Origin: Bombella mellum
GTDB taxonomy: Bacteria; Pseudomonadota; Alphaproteobacteria; Acetobacterales; Acetobacteraceae
Reading direction: 5' to 3'
DNA length: 64,000 bases
NCBI RefSeq assembly: GCF_014048465.1
Contig: NZ_PDLY01000005.1
Span: 1-64,000 of the forward strand
The notes under the pieces were generated by a model. It was not told where the DNA came from. It made no database searches and was given only the letters and a program-made list of their open reading frames with translations. This document shows, in pieces, positions 359 to 10,204 of this stretch; the stretch's first letter is position 1, and every line of letters begins with the position of its first letter. The position numbers and the translations under genes were made by a program.

Positions 359-2899
359 ATGCAGGAATGGTCTGAGTGGCCCGCAAAGAGTGCCCGCCCT
401 CCCGAGATGATCGAACATCCTGCAATTTATCATATGCTTGATGTGGCAGCAGTTGCCGAACAGTTGATTGCATCATCATCTTGGCCTGCTGTACTAAAGC
501 AGGCCTTTATTGCCTTGGCAGGACTGCATGATCTGGGGAAATTCAGTCATCAGTTTCGAAGGATGTTGCGTGGAGAAGGAGGGGGGATCCCTTCACACTG
601 GGAGCTGACCGAAATACTCCTGCTGGCTCATGACGACATGCTGGCCGACTGGTTGGGAGGGACACTGACAGTCCGTCGGATACTTTATGCCTCGATAGCT
701 GGCCACCATGGACGTCCACCAGATCTTGCATTGCATGGACGTGAATTCAGAGAATGTGTGAGACGGCACGTTGGTGAAGGGAAGGAAGCCGCCAGACGTT
801 TTCTGGATGTTTTCAGGGATTTGTGGCCAGAGGCTTCTCTGGCGTCTCTTGATTTGGGACAGGCCCGACATGTTTCATGGTGGCTGTCTGGTCTCTGTAC
901 GGCGGCAGATTGGGTAGGGTCCAATACAAGATGGTTCCTGCCCAAGGAACTGAACAGCGGGCCTGCCGAATATCTTGAGGGAACTCGACTGGTGGCCAGA
1001 ACGGCGGTGGAAGAGGCCGGGCTGGGAGGGGCGGAGCCATGCTCCGAACCCCTGTTTGATTTTGTCTTGCGCCCCCTGCAGGTAGCTTGTGAAACCCTGC
1101 CACTACCGGATGGTCCGGCTCTGGTTGTCCTGGAAGCAGAAACGGGCGTTGGTAAGACGGAAGCCGCACTCATTCTGGCGCAGCGTATGGCATTGGCAGG
1201 TAAAGGCAGGGGGCTGTTCTTTGCCCTGCCCACGATGGCTACGGCTGATGCCATGTTTGACAGGACGGCACGTATCGTGGGGAAAATTTTTCAGAATCCG
1301 TCTGTCACCCTGGCTCATGGGCGGGCCGGGCTGTCTGTCCTGTTCAGGGATGTCATGGTGGAAGGAACCAATGCGGCATCTGATGATGATGGGAAAGGCA
1401 TTACCAGTTCGGAGTGGCTGGCGGGTGATAACAGGCGGGCACTGCTGGCTGATGTCGGTGTTGGGACAGTGGATCAGGCCCTGTTATCGACCCTGCGTGT
1501 ACGCTTTCAGACATTGCGGCACTATGGGCTGGCCTCCAAGATTGTGGTGGTGGATGAGGTTCATGAAATGGGTGAACCTTATATGGCTGAGATACTGGTC
1601 ACCCTGCTGAAAATGCATCGGGCGATGGGAGGTTCGGCCATTCTGCTGACGGCAACGCTTCCTCTTGAGTGGCGCAAACGGTTGCTTGCCACATATGAAG
1701 GCAGTTCCGAGTCATCAGCTTACCCGGCCATAACAGTGGCAGGAGGGGCCACCATGACGGAGTTCGCTGCTGATGAACGTCCCGTGAAAGGACCTGTCAC
1801 GGTGGAGCGGATCAGTACGGAGGATGAGGCTCTTCAGTATCTGACACAGGGGGTCGAGAAGGGGGCGGCCTGTGTCTGGATTCGTAACGTTGTGGACGAT
1901 GCCATTGCTGCGGTGGCTGCTCTGCGGCAGGTCGGTATCGAGGCGCATCTTTTACATGCCCGTTTTGCTCTCTGTGATCGGAAGAGGCTGGAAAAGGACG
2001 TGTTGGGGCGTGTGGGGCGTAATGGGAAGAAGCGCAGAGGGTATGTGCTGGTTTCGACCCAGATTGTCGAGGCATCCCTTGATCTGGATTTTGATCTGAT
2101 GGTTTCTGACCTAGCCCCAATCGGGTCTCTGATCCAGCGTGTGGGGCGGCTCTGGCGGCACATGGATTTACGTCCGGCTGAGGAGCGTCCCGTACCGGCT
2201 CCTGTTTTGAAGGTCCTCTCTCCGGACCCTGCCGATGTGCGGGATGCCCGTTGGCTGCACGGCATGTTTGGGAAGGGGGCCAGAATATATTCCCTGCCTG
2301 ATATGTGGAGAACAGCTCTGGTCCTGTTTCGGGAAGGGCAGATTACGGCCCCAGAGGGGCTGCGTTCTCTGATGGAAGCCGTGTATGCGCAGGATGCCGA
2401 ACCTCTTCCGGCCGTGTTCGACCGGGCTGATATGGATGAGATCGGGAAAGGTAACGCTGCGAAAGGGCTGGCCCTACAGAATGTGGTGAATATTGAGACA
2501 GACTATCGGAGTGGAGGCGGCAGGCAGGATGATGTGCTGTATCCCACCCGTCTTGGGGAGGCGACCAGCATTCTCGTTCTGGCCCGACAGACGGAGAAAG
2601 GACTTGTCCCGTGGGCCTCGATGGGAGAGTCTTTTCATCAGGAGGCGGAGGAGGATGACCAGAAACTGCGGGCTTTGTGGATGCTTTCAGAAGTCTCGGT
2701 GCTCAGCCGGTGGCTGAAGCCGCTGGACATGCCTGATCAGGACGCTCCGGCCATACAGGCGGTGAAAAAAGACTGGCCGAAATGGAAACGGGAAAACGCA
2801 GACATTCTGCTGTGTCCTGTGCAAATGCCGGGGGGAGAAATTTGCAAGGGACTGTGCTATGATGAGGGAAGAGGACTTTTTTTTGGTTCTTCGCCTTAG
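359..2899 (+). CDS. cas3: Cas3, type I-E HD nuclease-helicase
   Basis: 846 residues, normal for a type I-E Cas3. It is recruited by Cascade after target recognition and unwinds and degrades DNA. The N-terminal HD nuclease shows AGLHDLGKFSH (about residues 54-64) and AGHHG (about 115). The SF2 helicase follows with Walker A ETGVGKTEAA (about 262-271), the DEVH box (VVVDEVHEMG, about 397-406), motif III (LLTATLP) and motif VI (QRVGRLWRH). The start at 359 has a GGAAGGGTG stretch about 9 nt upstream. It lies 630 bp before cas8e with a separate regulatory region between. The final codons and the TAG stop are embedded in a degenerate CRISPR repeat (2884-2912), which is unusual. Confidence 0.96.
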   Translation: MQEWSEWPAKSARPPEMIEHPAIYHMLDVAAVAEQLIASSSWPAVLKQAFIALAGLHDLGKFSHQFRRMLRGEGGGIPSHWELTEILLLAHDDMLADWLGGTLTVRRILYASIAGHHGRPPDLALHGREFRECVRRHVGEGKEAARRFLDVFRDLWPEASLASLDLGQARHVSWWLSGLCTAADWVGSNTRWFLPKELNSGPAEYLEGTRLVARTAVEEAGLGGAEPCSEPLFDFVLRPLQVACETLPLPDGPALVVLEAETGVGKTEAALILAQRMALAGKGRGLFFALPTMATADAMFDRTARIVGKIFQNPSVTLAHGRAGLSVLFRDVMVEGTNAASDDDGKGITSSEWLAGDNRRALLADVGVGTVDQALLSTLRVRFQTLRHYGLASKIVVVDEVHEMGEPYMAEILVTLLKMHRAMGGSAILLTATLPLEWRKRLLATYEGSSESSAYPAITVAGGATMTEFAADERPVKGPVTVERISTEDEALQYLTQGVEKGAACVWIRNVVDDAIAAVAALRQVGIEAHLLHARFALCDRKRLEKDVLGRVGRNGKKRRGYVLVSTQIVEASLDLDFDLMVSDLAPIGSLIQRVGRLWRHMDLRPAEERPVPAPVLKVLSPDPADVRDARWLHGMFGKGARIYSLPDMWRTALVLFREGQITAPEGLRSLMEAVYAQDAEPLPAVFDRADMDEIGKGNAAKGLALQNVVNIETDYRSGGGRQDDVLYPTRLGEATSILVLARQTEKGLVPWASMGESFHQEAEEDDQKLRALWMLSEVSVLSRWLKPLDMPDQDAPAIQAVKKDWPKWKRENADILLCPVQMPGGEICKGLCYDEGRGLFFGSSP
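2855..2863 (+). promoter_or_regulatory. Candidate extended -10 promoter for the ectopic guide RNA
   Basis: TGCTATGAT inside the 3' end of cas3 is an extended -10 element (TGn followed by TATGAT, 5 of 6 to TATAAT). Initiation about 7 nt later, near 2870, would put the RNA start roughly 14 nt before the first degenerate repeat at 2884. No good -35 is seen, as is usual for extended -10 promoters. The motif match is seen; its activity is inferred. Confidence 0.4.
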
Positions 2900-2974
2900 C
2901 GGAGATGGCCCGAGCTTTTTGGAGGGCAATAGTGGTCTTCTCAGACTGTTCCTCGCTTATGCGGGGATGATTTT
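2884..2974 (+). ncRNA. CreA-like ectopic crRNA (two degenerate repeats and a 33-nt pseudo-spacer)
   Basis: The first pseudo-repeat, 2884-2912, matches the array repeat at 20 of 29 positions with no gap. The second, 2946-2974, matches 22 of the first 25 bases. Both keep the six-pair Cas6e hairpin: CTTCGC/GCGGAG with loop CTTA in the first and CCTCGC/GCGGGG with loop TTAT in the second, using G-T pairs. Between them is a 33-nt pseudo-spacer (2913-2945), close to the 32 nt of the array. The second hairpin runs into TTTTT (2971-2975), a plausible terminator. Cas6e cutting would leave the 8-nt handle ATGGCCCG, against ATGAACCG for array crRNAs. Two diverged repeats flanking one spacer, beside Cascade genes, is the layout known for creA antitoxin RNA genes. 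The first repeat overlaps the cas3 stop codon. The alternative is a leftover mini-array with no function, but the target match at 3022-3054 argues against that. Confidence 0.75.
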
Positions 2975-3018
2975 TGGATATCATATGTTTTGGAGGGTTG
3001 AAATTTGAATAAATTCAT

Positions 3019-3056
3019 ATGAGCTTCTTGGAAGCCAAGGGTGGACTAAATCTAAG
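3019..3056 (+). promoter_or_regulatory. Guide target site with PAM, overlapping the candidate creT promoter
   Basis: Starting at 3022 the sequence matches the 2913-2945 pseudo-spacer at 20 of the first 26 positions, beginning AGCTT-TTGGA. Mismatches are at 6, 12, 14, 18, 19 and 24, and pairing stops after 26. Directly 5' is ATG (3019-3021), one of the PAMs that works for E. coli type I-E. The same stretch holds a promoter-like pair, TTGGAA (3028-3033) and TCTAAG (3051-3056), spaced 17 bp. A bound Cascade would cover both hexamers. Partial pairing of this kind is expected to silence without Cas3 cleavage. The pairing is seen directly; promoter activity is inferred and the hexamers are only 4 of 6 matches each. 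Confidence 0.65.
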
Positions 3057-3080
3057 GGATATTGTGAGACAGGAAGAAAA

Positions 3081-3203
3081 ATGCTAATGATAAAGTGTGA
3101 GTCCCAGAGGGATCAGATTCTCAAGGACTCACACATTCCACATATTCAGCCGTTGGCGCGGCCGAATAACAAAAAGGAGGGAAAAGATGAAGTAACCTTT
3201 TAA
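3081..3203 (+). CDS. Possible 40-aa peptide gene in the creT region
   Basis: A short reading frame begins ATG CTA ATG ATA AAG and ends TAA at 3201-3203. AGGAAG (3071-3076) lies 4 nt before the first ATG and 10 nt before the second (3087). The peptide is basic and polar with no membrane segment. It overlaps the strong Shine-Dalgarno and minigene in another frame, so the two are competing readings of the same RNA. No family is recognised. It could be a peptide toxin, a leader peptide, or chance. Confidence 0.25.
   Translation: MLMIKCESQRDQILKDSHIPHIQPLARPNNKKEGKDEVTF
3187..3195 (+). CDS. Two-codon minigene ATG AAG TAA
   Basis: A complete AAGGAGG Shine-Dalgarno (3174-3180) sits 6 nt upstream of ATG AAG TAA. 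Such a strong site ahead of only Met-Lys makes little sense for a normal protein. Minigenes of this kind, like the lambda bar minigenes (ATG ATA TAA), are toxic because ribosomes release peptidyl-tRNA and starve the cell of that tRNA; here it would be a lysine tRNA. The sequence is certain, the toxic role is inferred. Confidence 0.45.
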   Translation: MK

Positions 3204-3240
3204 CGCTACCTTTTTGCGTGACGCTCACGGTACCGCAAAA

Positions 3241-3530
3241 TCATAAATCGCAGCAAGGGGCGATATCTTTCTATCGCCTGAAAAAATATGACGTTTTCTG
3301 AAAGGGAGATGTCGTTGGCCGGAGTGTATTCCATGTCCTTAGACATAACTTTGAACTTTCATTTTCTTGTGAAAGCGACTGATGTTGAATTCGTAAAGAA
3401 TCTTCTCGTGATAAAATCCGGTACGATTCCATCATGGAGTGGCTTCGTGGTCTGCATGGGCCTGCTGAAAATATATTCCGAGTTGGACGCTGATGATCAT
3501 CGATAATCTTTGCGTCCAGGGAGTGATCTT
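3241..3530 (+). promoter_or_regulatory. AT-rich leader of the Cascade operon
   Basis: No convincing gene. A frame at 3288-3506 (72 codons) has no ribosome site and resembles nothing I know. There is a perfect 7-bp hairpin GGCGATA/TATCGCC (3259-3265 with 3272-3278). Just before cas8e, GGACGC (3485-3490) can pair with GCGTCC (3512-3517), enclosing the palindrome GATGATCATC (3492-3501). The right arm ends next to the cas8e ribosome site, so the structure could affect translation or the palindrome could bind a regulator. The cas8e promoter is expected here but I cannot place it firmly. Confidence 0.4.
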
Positions 3531-5063
3531 ATGGAGCAATTTCTGTCTGATCGAGAGAAAGGCCCAGACATGATGAATCTGATCATGGATCAGTGGATCC
3601 CTGTGAAATGTACCGATGGAAGGAGACGGATTATTGCGCCCTGGCAGATGGCGGAGGCTGGCGTGTATCTGCCTGACTGGCCTCGGGCGGATTTCAATAT
3701 TGCCTGTCTGGAGCTTCTGGTCGGGCTTGTTTACATGGCTGATCCTCCTGCTGATGAAGAGGAGTGGCATGGGCGGAAGCGGCCTGAGCCGGAACGGCTC
3801 AAGGAACGGCTGGCTTCTTTTGCGCCAGCTTTCTTCCTGCTTGGTGATGGCCCTCGCTTTCTTCAGGATCATGAACGGCTGGATGGTGCGCCCAATCCTG
3901 TCGACATGCTGTTCATCGATAGTGCAGGAGGGCAGACAAAGCGTAACAATATTGACGTCATGGTGCATCGTGACCGGTATGAGGCCCTGACCCTGTCGGA
4001 AGCGGCCATGGCCCTGTATACGTTGCAGAACTTCGCCCCTTCTGGTGGTGCCGGAAATCGGACATCCATGCGTGGCGGTGGCCCGCTTGTGACGCTTGTT
4101 GATCCTGGCAGGGAACTGTGGGATCTCGTCTGGCTGAATGTGCCTTTTGGCCGTCCTTCTGACATGAAGGCCCTGCCCTGGATGAGGCCAACACGGACAT
4201 CGGAAGCCGGGCAGGTGGTGCAGCCTTCTGATCAGACAAGAGGCTTTGATGTGGAGGCCTTTTTCGGAATGCCTCGCCGTCTGCGTCTTGTTGAGGAGGG
4301 GGGCAGGATAACGGGTGTCATACAGAAACCTTATGGCACCAACTATGCCCAGTGGCAGCATCCGTTAAGTCCTTATTATCGGCTGAAGGCCGGGTCGGAA
4401 CTGTTGCCCCGTCATCCAAGGCCGGGCCGGTTCGGATACCGAAACTGGCTGGGTGTCATTGTGGCGCAACCTGCCAGCCGTCAGCATTCTGATGGGCTGG
4501 CTGAGCTGGCTCTCATCATTCGTGAATGGAACGGGGGAAGAAGGGGAGACGCAGGACCGGAGGACAGTTTTTCGGTCATCGTGGCAGGCTGGGCCATGAA
4601 CAACATGAGTCCGAGAAACTTCATACAGTCCCGCCAGCCTGTGCGGATTCTGTCAGTTGACGAGCTGGATCAGCTGGAAACGCTTATCAAGGCCGCTCAT
4701 ATGGTGGCGGAGATGCTCAATCGTGCTCTGGTTCCCTTGTGCTCGACGGGTGAAGCACGGGAGATACAGCGTGAAGAGTTCTATCTGAAAACGGAGACGC
4801 ATCTGCATGACTGTATCCAGAAAATCGTGCGCGGTACCAATCCTGCCTCTTTCTGGCTCAGGGTGCTGAGCAGGCAGGCCTGGAGCCAGTTTGATGTTCT
4901 GCTACGGTCAGGGCTGGTGGACCGTCCGATGAAGGAAATGGAGAAAATCATGACGGCCGGAAAGATTCTTGGTCTGGAGCTGCGGGGTTATGGCAGGGCT
5001 GGTGATCTTCTTTTCACTGCATTGAATATTTCCCGCCCAGAAAAGAAAGGGAAAACGGCATGA
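3531..5063 (+). CDS. cas8e: Cas8e (Cse1/CasA), Cascade large subunit
   Basis: About 510 residues, the usual size for Cse1. It recognises the PAM and recruits Cas3. The segment MNLIMDQWIPVKCTDG near the start matches the family's N-terminal signature. I chose ATG 3531 because AGGGAG (about 3518-3523) sits 7 nt upstream; a TTG at 3510 extends the frame and ATG 3570/3573 would begin right at the family signature, so the true start may be later. It is the first gene of an operon in which most genes overlap by a few bases, beginning with a 4-bp overlap with cse2. Confidence 0.93.
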   Translation: MEQFLSDREKGPDMMNLIMDQWIPVKCTDGRRRIIAPWQMAEAGVYLPDWPRADFNIACLELLVGLVYMADPPADEEEWHGRKRPEPERLKERLASFAPAFFLLGDGPRFLQDHERLDGAPNPVDMLFIDSAGGQTKRNNIDVMVHRDRYEALTLSEAAMALYTLQNFAPSGGAGNRTSMRGGGPLVTLVDPGRELWDLVWLNVPFGRPSDMKALPWMRPTRTSEAGQVVQPSDQTRGFDVEAFFGMPRRLRLVEEGGRITGVIQKPYGTNYAQWQHPLSPYYRLKAGSELLPRHPRPGRFGYRNWLGVIVAQPASRQHSDGLAELALIIREWNGGRRGDAGPEDSFSVIVAGWAMNNMSPRNFIQSRQPVRILSVDELDQLETLIKAAHMVAEMLNRALVPLCSTGEAREIQREEFYLKTETHLHDCIQKIVRGTNPASFWLRVLSRQAWSQFDVLLRSGLVDRPMKEMEKIMTAGKILGLELRGYGRAGDLLFTALNISRPEKKGKTA

Positions 5064-5578
5064 GCGCAAAAAGAGACATAGGTGTACAGGTGCTGGCGTG
5101 GTGGCGTGCCAATCTGTCCGCCCGTACCTCGAGTGGGGACGGGCTGGTCAGGATGGATCAGACGGCAGCCCGTGGCCTGAGTGCCAGACTGCGCCGTGGG
5201 TGCTTCCCTGATGTGCTGTTTGAGCCTGCCACACAGCAGCTGAGATGTCAGCTCAACCTGAATGAGCATGAACTGAAACGCTTCAGTCATCTGCTCATTC
5301 TTCTTGGTGAGATTCGGGAACATGATCCCAGACCATTGGCCAGTCTTCTGGGGGGGGCGAGCGGTGAACGGTTGCTGTCCCACATGCGCTTCAAACAGCT
5401 GATGTCAGCTGATGACGACAAGCGTCTCGATCTGCTGCGTCGTGCCTTGGGGCTGACGGGGGGACGGTGCAATGTGGCAAGGCTCGCTTGGGACATGATT
5501 CTCTGGAATGATCAGGTCAGAACCCGCTGGTGCCTTGATTATTTTGATTCTGAAATGCCCGAGGAAAAAGAGGACTGA
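5060..5578 (+). CDS. cse2: Cse2 (CasB), Cascade small subunit
   Basis: 172 residues, all-helical in prediction by eye, with the family's length and position between cas8e and cas7e. Cse2 forms the dimer that stabilises the non-target strand and crRNA-DNA hybrid. The segment LILLGEIREHDPRPLASLLGG followed by MRFKQLMSADD resembles the conserved Cse2 core. The start ATG overlaps the cas8e stop (ATGA), so translation is probably coupled. Confidence 0.9.
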   Translation: MSAKRDIGVQVLAWWRANLSARTSSGDGLVRMDQTAARGLSARLRRGCFPDVLFEPATQQLRCQLNLNEHELKRFSHLLILLGEIREHDPRPLASLLGGASGERLLSHMRFKQLMSADDDKRLDLLRRALGLTGGRCNVARLAWDMILWNDQVRTRWCLDYFDSEMPEEKED

Positions 5579-5627
5579 GGCCTGCGTTCTGCGGGTCATG
5601 ATCCGTGAGTATGGAGAGGATTTCATC

Positions 5628-6692
5628 ATGACAACATTTGTTCAGTTTCATGTCCTGACAACATATGGGCCTTCCAACCCCAACCGTGATGACATGGGAA
5701 AACCCAAACAGGTGGAGATGGGGGGCGAAGTACGCCTGCGGCATTCGTCGCAGTCGGTCAAACGGGCCTTGCGGGAGAGCACGTTCTTCAGTCAGGACCT
5801 GACTGATCATATGGGCAAGCGTACCAAACGTCTGCATGGGGATTTGGTGCAGCATCTGCTTGGTAAAGGCGTTGTGGAAAAGGATGCTCTGGAGGCGGCG
5901 GATACGGTAGCGGCCATTTTTGGCAAGCTCGAACCCGTTGAAAAAGGGTCTGATGCGAAAATCGCCACGACCCTGGCTTTCATTTCACCTGAAGAACGCA
6001 GGCTTGCAGAGGAGCTGGCGGAAAAAGCGGCAGCCGGGGAGAAGCTGCCCAAGGACAAGGGACTGAAGAAACTTGTCCTGCGGCGTGCCGATGGAGCCGT
6101 GGACGTGGCCATGTTCGGGCGTATGCTGGCCTCTGATACGGATTTCAACAGGGATGCTGCCGTGCAGGTGGCGCACGCTTTCACGACCCATCGTTCCATC
6201 TCACAGGAGGACTGGTTCTCTGCCGTGGATGATCTCAACAGGGATGATAAGCAGGGAGCTGCCCATATTGGAGAAAGTGCTTTCGGCACGGGCGTGTTTT
6301 ATCAGTATGTCTGTGTGAATGTGGACCTGCTGGTCGACAATCTTGCCGGTGACAGGGAGCTGGCGGTCAGGGCCATGGAAGCCTTGGCTCGGGCACTGTC
6401 TCAGGCCACGCCTCGTGGCAAGCAGAACAGTCATGCACATCATCCGCGGGCGCATTTCATGCTGGCGGAACGGGGCGAGCAGGCACCCCGTGACCTGTCT
6501 GGAGCTTTCTTCAATGCTGTGAAGGAAAGACCTCTTCTGGAAACTTCCATTGAGGAACTGAAGAAGATGCGTGGAGCCATCGACAGGGCTTACGGGCAGT
6601 GCTGGGACGCTGAAGCTGTGATGCATCTTGGACGAGAGGGAACAGTGGATGAGATTGCCGCCTTCGCAGGTAAAGCCGTGCGGGGTAAGTGA
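5628..6692 (+). CDS. cas7e: Cas7e (Cse4/CasC), Cascade backbone
   Basis: 354 residues from ATG 5628, which has GGAGAGGA about 8 nt upstream; the frame is open further 5' but overlaps cse2. The N-terminus MTTFVQFHVLTTYGPSNPNR and the following stretch ending HSSQSVKRALRES are characteristic of the Cse4/CasC family. Six copies coat the crRNA in Cascade and cause the flipped-out base at every sixth guide position, which is directly relevant to the pseudo-spacer/target mismatch pattern at 2913-2945 and 3022-3054. The stop shares a base with the cas5e ATG. Confidence 0.95.
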   Translation: MTTFVQFHVLTTYGPSNPNRDDMGKPKQVEMGGEVRLRHSSQSVKRALRESTFFSQDLTDHMGKRTKRLHGDLVQHLLGKGVVEKDALEAADTVAAIFGKLEPVEKGSDAKIATTLAFISPEERRLAEELAEKAAAGEKLPKDKGLKKLVLRRADGAVDVAMFGRMLASDTDFNRDAAVQVAHAFTTHRSISQEDWFSAVDDLNRDDKQGAAHIGESAFGTGVFYQYVCVNVDLLVDNLAGDRELAVRAMEALARALSQATPRGKQNSHAHHPRAHFMLAERGEQAPRDLSGAFFNAVKERPLLETSIEELKKMRGAIDRAYGQCWDAEAVMHLGREGTVDEIAAFAGKAVRGK

Positions 6693-7384
6693 TGGCTTCT
6701 CCTTATCTGGTGTTTTCGCTCTCGGCCTCTCTGGGAGCGATGGGCGAACTGGCAGGGCACGAGCGGCGAGGATCGCTGCTCTGGCCGGGACGCTCCGCCC
6801 TGATCGGGCTGATGGGAGCTGCTCTGGGCATCCGGCGGGATGGTGATTTTTCCGGGCTGGACAGTCTGAAGATTGACGTGGCGGTGTTTGACAGCGGGGC
6901 ACCCCTGCGGGATTTCCATACCATCCAGTCCGTTCCGTCCGCAGTGGTGAAGAAGCCAAATTCACGCCCGGAAGCCATCCGGGCCGCCGGGGGGCGGCTG
7001 ACGACCAGCATCACCCTGCGTGATTATCGGGCAGGCGTGTTTTACGGTGTGGCCGTACAGGGTGACGGGCTGGAAGAGATTGCGGCAGCGTTACAGAAGC
7101 CATATTTCACGCTCTATCTTGGCCGTAAATCCTGTCCGCTTTCATCACCGTTAAATCCCCAGATCATACAGGCTGATACGGTTGATGAGGCTCTGGGACG
7201 GGTGAAAGTGCCTATCTGGCTCTCCAAACACGTTGGGCTTTCTAAAGAGGTCATGATCGTTGGTGAGCAAGGGAGTCATCGTGATCTTGTGAATGATGTT
7301 CCGCTGGACCGGCAACGCTGGCACTTTGCCTCACGGGAAGTCAGGATACGTCACGCCCACCTGCTGAGAAAGGAGCTGACATGA
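6692..7384 (+). CDS. cas5e: Cas5e (CasD), crRNA 5'-handle binding subunit
   Basis: 230 residues. The N-terminus MASPYLVFSLSASLGAMGE and WPGRSALIGLMGAALGI fit the type I-E Cas5 family, whose members begin with a beta strand and the W-P-x-x-S-x-x-x-G-L motif. It caps the 5' handle of the crRNA. The ATG overlaps the cas7e TGA by one base; an in-frame GTG three bases earlier is a less likely start. It ends with a 4-bp overlap into cas6e. Confidence 0.93.
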   Translation: MASPYLVFSLSASLGAMGELAGHERRGSLLWPGRSALIGLMGAALGIRRDGDFSGLDSLKIDVAVFDSGAPLRDFHTIQSVPSAVVKKPNSRPEAIRAAGGRLTTSITLRDYRAGVFYGVAVQGDGLEEIAAALQKPYFTLYLGRKSCPLSSPLNPQIIQADTVDEALGRVKVPIWLSKHVGLSKEVMIVGEQGSHRDLVNDVPLDRQRWHFASREVRIRHAHLLRKELT

Positions 7385-8060
7385 ACTGGTATCTGAGCAG
7401 ATTTCGCCTTTCCCGCAGTCCGGCCGTCCGTGTTCTGGAAGCTGCCCTGAGAGAGCCTGACGCAGGGTTGAGACGGTCCTCCCAGCATCACATGCTCTGG
7501 TCTGCCTTTGCGACTGATCCCAACCAGAAGCGGGATTTTCTCTGGCGTGCAGAAAGTGACGGGAGCTTTCTTACTCTCTCTCCGCGCCTTCCACGGGATG
7601 ATAACGAGCTGTTCGAGCCTCCTCAGTGCAAGCTTTTTGCCCCTGAACTGAAGGCAGGGGACAGGCTTGAGTTTCAGCTTCAGGTCAATGCGACACGGAT
7701 GAAGCGTAATATCGGCAAGCGTGTGGATGTCGTTCTGGATGCGATTCATTCTATTCCGAAGAAGGAACGGGCAGAGAAACGCATGGACCTTGCCTATAAA
7801 GAAGGTCTCGCCTGGCTGACACGACAGGGTGAGAAAGCGGGTTTTGTGCCGCATCATGTGTCTGCCGATGATTATCATACCGAGACGCTTCCACGTTTTG
7901 GAAACGAACGGAAGAGGAACAATCGGCCTGATTTCGGCATTCTGGATCTCTCAGGCCAGCTGGAGGTGACAGACCCGGAAGCGTTTCTGGCCCAGCTTGT
8001 CCGGGGTTTTGGTCGGGCCAAGGCCTTTGGTTGCGGCCTCATGCTGATCCGGCGGGCTTC

Positions 8061-8064
<4 letters not shown>
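7381..8064 (+). CDS. cas6e: Cas6e (CasE), crRNA-processing endoribonuclease
   Basis: 227 residues beginning MNWYLSRFRLSRSPAVRVL, with the paired RAMP folds of Cas6e and the SQHHMLWSAFA segment that holds the conserved histidine near residue 36. The C-terminal GFGRAKAFGCGLMLIRR is the glycine-rich loop typical of the family. It cuts at the 3' base of the repeat hairpin and should also process the degenerate repeats at 2884-2974, whose stems keep the same six pairs. ATGA overlaps join it to both neighbours. Confidence 0.94.
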
Positions 8065-9292
<1,228 letters not shown>

Positions 9293-9382: not shown

Positions 9383-10204
9383 CTGTTCCCCGCCCATGCG
9401 GGGATGAACCGTTTCTCTCCCTACGCTGACTTCATGGATGGAACTGTTCCCCGCCCATGCGGGGATGAACCGACGGCCACACAGAACTTTTTCGTGAAAA
9501 CGTACTGTTCCCCGCCCATGCGGGGATGAACCTCAAACCAAGCATGTGTGGGACGCTATCCGTGCCTGTTCCCCGCCCATGCGGGGATGAACCTGAACTG
9601 GAGACGCTTCCATTTGTCTCAAGACTCTGTTCCCCGCCCATGCGGGGATGAACCGAGGGCCAGCGTTCTGGTCCCCCGGCAGAATCTCTGTTCCCCGCCC
9701 ATGCGGGGATGAACCGGTGGGCGTGTGGTCCGATTTCTCCAGCACAGACTGTTCCCCGCCCATGCGGGGATGAACCGGGCGGCGGCAAGCTGGCCAGATA
9801 CCTGACGGACTGTTCCCCGCCCATGCGGGGATGAACCGTACTCACGGGGGACTGGCCGATTTTCTCTGATCTGTTCCCCGCCCATGCGGGGATGAACCGG
9901 TGAGGCTGGTGGCCCACTGGGGCATCACCTCCTGTTCCCCGCCCATGCGGGGATGAACCGGCACGACACCGCTTCCCTTCCAGAGCGGAGACCTGTTCCC
10001 CGCCCATGCGGGGATGAACCGCCCGTCCCGTCATCGTAATATCCGATCACATTCTGTTCCCCGCCCATGCGGGGATGAACCGATTTCCTCCCTGTCATGA
10101 GGTAGGCGTTCTCCCTGTTCCCCGCCCATGCGGGGATGAACCCCGTGAAGGCCGACATGCGGGAAATGACAAAACCTGTTCCCCGCCCATGCGGGGATGG
10201 TCCA
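9383..10204 (+). CRISPR. Type I-E CRISPR array, 14 repeats and 13 spacers
   Basis: 29-nt repeats starting CTGTTCCCCGCCCATGCG recur every 61 bp at 9383, 9444, 9505, 9566, 9627, 9688, 9749, 9810, 9871, 9932, 9993, 10054, 10115 and 10176, separated by 32-nt spacers. The hairpin stem is CCCCGC/GCGGGG with loop CCAT. The first 28 bases are constant in repeats 1-13. Base 29 is G in ten of them, T at the repeats starting 9505 and 9566, and C at 10115. The last repeat keeps 24 bases and then degenerates, as expected for the leader-distal end. I see no spacer that matches elsewhere in this window. The array stops 8-13 bp before the 3' end of the convergent TonB receptor gene. Confidence 0.99.

Follow-up and report, generated by a model that had tools for sequence, protein, structure and literature searches.

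The stretch analysed here, referred to as the window, comprises 64,000 nucleotides (nt) of Bombella mellum (contig NZ_PDLY01000005.1, positions 1 to 64,000) and opens with a type I-E locus of clustered regularly interspaced short palindromic repeats (CRISPR) and their cas genes, which lie on the forward strand, as do the array and the parts of the module described below. The I-E gene set is complete, with cas3, cse1, cse2, cas7, cas5, cas6e, cas1e and cas2e all open and matched by family models. The cas3 gene (359–2899) encodes 846 amino acids (aa) with HD and helicase parts; its product scores above the cut-offs of the NCBIfam models cas3_core and cas3_HD and below that of a longer Cas3 model. 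Downstream follow cas8e, also named cse1 (3531–5063; TIGR02547 above cut-off, alternative start possible at 3573), the genes cse2, cas7e, cas5e, cas6e, cas1e and cas2e (5060–9292; I-E models above cut-offs) and a CRISPR array (9383–10204) of 14 repeats with a 61-nt period. The 631-bp gap between cas3 and cas8e holds a small module, composed of a guide resembling a CRISPR RNA (crRNA) and, further downstream, a site that the guide partly matches. We consider it rather likely that this module is a type I-E relative of CreTA, in which a guide (CreA) directs the Cascade complex to silence a toxic unit (CreT).

The guide consists of a pseudo-spacer, psiS, framed by two degenerate repeats. The first of these, psiR1 (2884–2912), overlaps the stop codon of cas3 and is identical to the array repeat at 19 of 29 positions; psiS (2913–2945, 33 nt) starts immediately after it and is followed by psiR2 (2946–2974), with 22 of 29 positions identical. 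These values fall short of the conserved repeats expected of an ordinary mini-array. Counted against the array repeat, the 8-nt handle is kept at six positions in psiR1 and at four in psiR2, and the first 21 nt of the repeat at 13 positions in psiR1 and 18 in psiR2. The 5' handle of psiR1 reads ATGGCCCG, compared to ATGAACCG in the array, and the same ATGGCCCG is present in two related loci, L009 and L012. Most two-repeat creA genes follow this very pattern, psiR1 being better preserved at the handle and psiR2 in the first part (PMC8501985), and the agreement therefore counts towards the CreTA interpretation. The stem of psiR2 and the T-run behind it (2946–2984) resemble an intrinsic terminator, with a terminator-like match at 2950–2967, so that a single element could both end and process the guide transcript. 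That the crRNA-like guide is real seems to us very likely.

The target of the guide (3022–3054) lies directly beside an ATG protospacer-adjacent motif (PAM; 3019–3021), and pairing is limited to 3022–3047, where 20 of 26 positions match. A first-pass annotation of the window had pointed out this match, and a recount returned the mismatches it listed, at positions 6, 12, 14, 18, 19 and 24, together with the PAM and the unpaired 3' end (positions 27–32 of psiS do not match). The seed is perfect, positions 1–5 and 7–11 all being paired (10/10). Dinucleotide shuffling of the 603 nt downstream produced a perfect seed next to a PAM (AAG, ATG, AGG and GAG were accepted) in 28 of 137,757 shuffles, and none of 1000 shuffles reached the 14 matches found among the 15 non-flipped positions within 1–17. 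The exact seed preceded by A[A/T]G occurs a single time in the 2.07-Mb genome, at the target itself, and a second guide site of this kind was not found elsewhere. The target overlaps the candidate promoter TTGGAA-17-TCTAAG (3028–3056), made up of TTGGAA at 3028–3033 and TCTAAG at 3051–3056. The pair, which the first-pass annotation had noted, is promoter-like by sequence; a sigma-70 consensus scan of 2700–3700 reported no promoter on the forward strand, this pair included. Inspection by eye suggests that a second promoter nearer to the first hairpin of the downstream RNA is possible.

Related loci were sought through Cas8e, with hits in 45 of 299 Acetobacteraceae genomes, in 10 of 11 of the genus and in 8 of 385 of the class (the window genome is counted in each), and in 2 of 3, 8 of 14 and 2 of 4 genomes of further genera that were searched separately; ten loci were added from named genome contigs. 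Judged by Cas8e, the closest named relatives are one Acetobacteraceae genome and Bombella species, and the host is accordingly placed near Bombella among the acetic acid bacteria. The anatomy of the module is found again in other Acetobacteraceae and in Alphaproteobacteria; a repeat pair was recognised in the gap of 17 loci, 15 of which have a nearby target (the window, L009, L010, L011, L012, L014, L015, L023, L027, L028, L030, L037, L061, L064 and L065). The start of each psiS was set manually where the repeat-like handle ends, in part with the target in view, and the best downstream sites were chosen by plain matches over positions 1–17, without favouring positions 6 and 12. Since L009 and L010 come from one genus and the guides of L023 and L027 are alike, the 15 loci fall short of full independence. 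The pseudo-spacers of L023, L027 and L030 are about 20–21 nt long, compared to the 32-nt array spacers of the window.

Across these loci the PAM at the best site is AAG in 11, ATG in three and AAA in one, and the target of L030 lies on the other strand. The seed is perfect in eight loci and matches at 8–9 of 10 positions in the other seven. Position 6 is mismatched in 11 of the 15 loci and position 12 likewise in 11, giving 22 mismatches in 30 compared to 28 in 225 at the other positions of 1–17 (Fisher test, 6e-12), an excess that Cascade binding predicts; in H. hubeiense CreA, mutation showed the same two positions to be free (PMC8501985). The sister loci L009 and L010 differ at a single seed position, position 3, where guide and target carry the same double change, and the last base of the handle and the last base of the PAM have changed jointly as well (G and AAG in L009, A and AAA in L010). 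The first-pass annotation had described mismatches at every sixth base. In the window, positions 6, 12, 18 and 24 of the match are indeed mismatched, as stated; positions 14 and 19 are not flipped-out positions, and to this extent the pattern was overstated. A designed every-sixth-base pattern was rejected on the evidence of the relatives, L012, L014, L023 and L065 pairing at position 6 and L010, L023, L061 and L064 at position 12; pairing in several loci implies that these positions are free and that a mismatch is not required. Its proposal of repression without cutting is borne out by the recurrence of the layout, the PAM, the near-perfect seed and the free positions 6 and 12 in other genomes. 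Read from sequence, Cascade-guided repression without cutting at the target is well supported; Cas3 is probably not triggered, as the pairing would be too short to license it. We hold it to be highly probable that the guide represses the site at 3022–3047.

The same observations bear on the view that the module is a decayed two-repeat array with an accidental match to its own neighbourhood. Its repeats are degenerate, repeat pairs without a target exist in L038 and L066, and ordinary repeats occur in the cas3–cas8e gap of L040, L066 and L122, all of which speak for such decay. Set against this are the rarity of seed and PAM in the shuffles (28 of 137,757), the recurrence in relatives, the free positions 6 and 12 and the joint change in guide and target. 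A decayed array is therefore very improbable, and the shuffles together with the recurrence rule out a chance self-match.

Downstream of the target a structured RNA is predicted at 3062–3230 (ends uncertain), with a minimum free energy of -53.1 and a z-score of -3.98, none of 200 shuffles being as stable. Its predicted fold includes two leader hairpins (3095–3134 and 3143–3168; leader z -4.63), followed by a consensus Shine–Dalgarno (SD) sequence, AAGGAGG (3174–3180), and by a mini open reading frame (mini-ORF) of two codons, ATG AAG TAA (3187–3195), which starts 165 nt after the start of the target and is a candidate toxic minigene. In the predicted fold ATGAAGTAA sits in the loop of a third hairpin and the SD in its stem. 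The parts of a CreT, namely a strong SD, an ATG, a mini-ORF and stable hairpins, are thus all present; the combination of SD and mini-ORF is not significant in the window alone, and the tandem rare codons of the haloarchaeal type are absent, the mini-ORF having a single AAG. Sequestration of a rare tRNA by AAG was considered and rejected, AAG being common in the window and tRNA-Lys CTT and TTT both being present, one each in an ARAGORN scan of 50 of the 51 tRNA matches (the 51st lies at 154–227 of the window). The two-codon unit would instead suit depletion of Lys-tRNA by drop-off of peptidyl-tRNA, by analogy with known minigenes: toxicity is greatest at a length of two codons and is increased by a strong SD and a UAA stop, with drop-off depleting the last tRNA (PMC8708949); fMet-Lys-tRNA dissociates rapidly from the ribosome, and the level of charged Lys-tRNA drops soon after Pth fails (PMC10192219). 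Taken alone, this suggestion for ATG-AAG-TAA is weakly supported.

The structured region also contains a longer candidate, a 40-aa ORF at 3081–3206, which might be the toxin of a CreTA module, either as a peptide or as an RNA that uses its early rare codons CTA and ATA. The ORF fits a start just downstream of TTGGAA/TCTAAG, has AGGA 6 nt before its ATG, and its CTA and ATA occur at 1.2 and 3.8 per thousand codons in the 41 ORFs of the window; the CreT of Citrobacter rodentium, a 96-bp ORF whose translation is needed, offers a precedent (PMC12055562). Both leader hairpins fall inside this ORF, however, and its SD is weaker than the one at 3174, so that we regard it as an unlikely toxin. A 72-aa ORF lies at 3288–3506, between the module and cas8e; neither it nor the ORF at 3081 has a match in NCBIfam, the library scanned.

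Relatives provide clearer examples of the downstream unit. Under a fixed rule, a strong SD with a mini-ORF is found downstream of the target and before cas8e in nine of the 15 module loci, compared to an expectation of 0.76 from shuffled versions of these stretches (P(>=9) 2e-9). No strong-SD mini-ORF was found in 47 other loci; because 38 of these gave stretches of at most 250 nt (the remaining nine gave longer ones), the shuffles serve as the control. Duplicates and near-identical loci were dropped before counting (L029, L032, L033, L034, L036, L042, L043, L121, L123, L124 and L125), and some close relatives were kept, for example L007, L008 and L044. Tandem AGA-AGA mini-ORFs occur in L011, L012, L023 and L064; that of L064 is a tenth candidate, with an SD too weak for the strict rule. 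Other loci use TTA-TTA-TTA (L037), AGG-ATA (L065) or a single AGA (L015), and L028 has a 32-codon ORF without a tandem rare codon pair at its start. In the local ORFs of the five AGA loci (L011, L012, L023, L030 and L064) AGA is found at 0–2.4 per thousand codons, and TTA in those of L037 at 2.6 per thousand. In each of the ten loci tested the leader before the mini-ORF is more stable than its shuffles, with z ranging from -2.3 to -6.3 and no more than four of 200 shuffles being as stable, and in the nine loci other than the window the mini-ORF starts 96–168 nt after the target start. Taken together, the excess of strong-SD mini-ORFs, the tandem rare codons and the folded leaders make the family best read as type I-E CreTA; judged by sequence, L011, L012, L023, L030, L064, L037 and L065 would hold candidate tRNA-sequestering CreT units clearer than that of the window.

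One could also see the mini-ORF as a harmless translated leader that tunes the expression of cas8e. The two-codon minigene of axe-txe tunes the gene that follows it in cis and is non-toxic; it is the natural minigene assayed in PMC8708949. There the stop lies 15 nt before the next gene, compared to about 335 nt before cas8e here, and relatives often have tandem rare codons at this place, which are better suited to sequestration. This explanation appears improbable to us.

A more serious competitor is regulation of the CreR kind, whereby the guide would repress the cas8e–cas2 promoter and so set the level of Cascade, which would rise whenever Cascade is drawn off by array crRNAs or anti-CRISPRs; no toxin would be involved, and the downstream RNA would be a long leader. 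The target does lie upstream of cas8e and in the same direction, and between 3195 and 3531 we found a single weak terminator-like site (3247–3264), so that the same promoter may also feed cas8e and read-through is plausible. In L014 and L061 the target is close to cas8e with no mini-ORF between them, L009 and L010 have no clear mini-ORF, and PMC12737573 describes CreR as widespread among type I systems. On the other hand, about 510 nt separate the site in the window from cas8e, an interval that contains the structured leader (z -4.63) as well as a consensus SD and mini-ORF, and relatives hold SD-mini-ORFs at the same place above shuffle expectation. A purely regulatory role in the window is in our estimation the less probable case; the two functions are compatible and can both hold. 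By their sequences, L014 and L061, and perhaps L009, L010 and L027, are best read as being in a CreR-like state.

Several observations weigh against a CreTA module with ATG-AAG-TAA as its toxin. With regard to the guide, no target was found for the repeat pairs of L038 and L066 (the pair of L066 closes an ordinary array), the PAM of L010 is not a canonical one, and the match in L037 is weak (10/15; P 0.042 with and 0.43 without the PAM). In nine other cas8e genomes of the genus the gap measures 17–220 bp and no module was found. With regard to the toxin, an SD with a mini-ORF arises in 18% of window shuffles and in 2.8% within 80–180 nt of the target, AAG is not rare (18.2 per thousand codons in the 41 window ORFs), the alternative ORF at 3081–3206 is present, and pairing of the SD in the modelled stem could mask the mini-ORF as well as present it. 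Among relatives, no mini-ORF was found in L009, L010, L014, L027 and L061, by eye either, and these include the two loci closest by Cas8e outside the genus; the AGA-AGA of L030 sits in a frame of more than 45 codons that starts two bases before the 5-codon frame picked by the rule; and the AGG and ATA of L065 are only moderately rare (8.1 and 5.7 per thousand). In L004 and L033 the end of cas3, which cas8e follows immediately, has a psiR1-like stretch that scores no higher than chance matches; going by position and eye, this stretch may be a weak remnant of a module that Bombella pluederhausensis has deleted. If the module was lost in kin, cells can do without it on an evolutionary timescale, as may be the case for addiction elements.

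Even so, we favour a CreTA-like module, whose transcription, processing, repressive action and toxicity we infer from the guide–target match, its pattern in relatives and the anatomy of the RNA. Cas6e would cut a crRNA-like guide (CreA, psiR1-psiS-psiR2) out of its transcript, to be loaded into Cascade; the seed would pair to 3022–3047 beside the ATG PAM, and the adjacent promoter would be blocked. This promoter would otherwise make a small structured RNA with leader hairpins, a consensus SD and a mini-ORF, so that loss of Cascade would allow the RNA to be made and translation to be harmed, in the window most likely via the minigene ATG-AAG-TAA. Comparison with relatives suggests that what is repressed is a structured toxic RNA with a mini-ORF, instead of or besides cas8e; we lean towards a toxic RNA, and are more reserved about ATG-AAG-TAA as its toxic part, which may or may not hold. 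A broader proposal is offered tentatively: CreT of the window would be a Cascade-silenced fMet-Lys-stop minigene in a hairpin loop that drains Lys-tRNA by drop-off, and its relatives a wider alphaproteobacterial family of I-E CreTA modules, in which toxins switch the tRNA they deplete (Arg AGA, Leu TTA, perhaps Arg AGG/Ile ATA, and Lys AAG) and guide and target coevolve.

At the far end of the locus, the final array repeat (10176–10204) has a degenerate 3' end (GGGATGGTCC), and the array extends up to where a convergent ORF of 725 aa ends; by eye this ORF resembles a TonB-dependent receptor.

Were the toxic RNA confirmed, the cell would depend on keeping its CRISPR immune system, and attempts to delete Cascade genes in strains of this kind may be unsuccessful or favour cells that have lost the entire locus. 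CRISPR addiction modules would then extend to acetic acid bacteria and other alphaproteobacteria, a series of related modules would allow comparison of guide, target and toxin codons, and it could be tested directly whether a minigene on its own, by draining tRNA, can serve as a natural toxin; an fMet-Lys minigene, if true, is about the smallest conceivable toxin gene. Cascade-guided repression itself is already known from the CreA and CreR kind, the former since work on H. hispanica (described in PMC8501985). The novelty lies in the alphaproteobacterial I-E series, across which the rare codons switch, and in a possible fMet-Lys minigene. Among the literature matches listed there was no related report of CreTA in acetic acid bacteria (Acetobacter) and no paper treating CreT together with minigenes, one experimental case of type I-E CreTA was found, and the available text of a paper on Bombella CRISPR (PMC12282179) makes no mention of cas3, promoters, toxins or self-targeting.

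Toxic minigenes share with the unit of the window two codons, a strong SD and a UAA stop, and differ in not being described as CRISPR-controlled in the available text (PMC8708949, PMC10192219). The type I-F CreTA of Acinetobacter likewise has psiR1-psiS-psiR2, an SD with a mini-ORF and a start codon in a predicted hairpin; in contrast to the window, creA and creT are divergent, there is no canonical seed and a 33-bp ORF is seemingly conserved (PMC10097628). CreR resembles the module in its crRNA-like guide that represses a promoter beside the cas genes and represents a toxin-free version, whereas several of the relatives described here carry toxin-like mini-ORFs (PMC12737573). Haloarchaeal type I-B CreTA shows degenerate repeats (two in H. 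hubeiense), a seed at 1–5 and 7–11 with 6 and 12 free, an SD or efficient start, a mini-ORF and a stable stem-loop, the parts reported as critical in H. hispanica CreT being a strong SD, an efficient start, two consecutive AGA codons and the stem-loop; subtype and PAM differ, and its tandem rare codons are replaced in the window by one AAG that is not rare (PMC8501985). The type I-E CreTA of C. rodentium, shown by experiment, has an ATG PAM and occupies the same gap, between cas3 and casA, with a crRNA-like guide, a partial match beside the PAM at a promoter and a translated unit downstream; its creA lies on the opposite strand, in contrast to the same-strand arrangement of the window, and its CreT is a 96-bp ORF, the window candidate being a two-codon minigene (PMC12055562). 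This CreT has no rare codons, which implies that tandem rare codons are not required of all CreT units.
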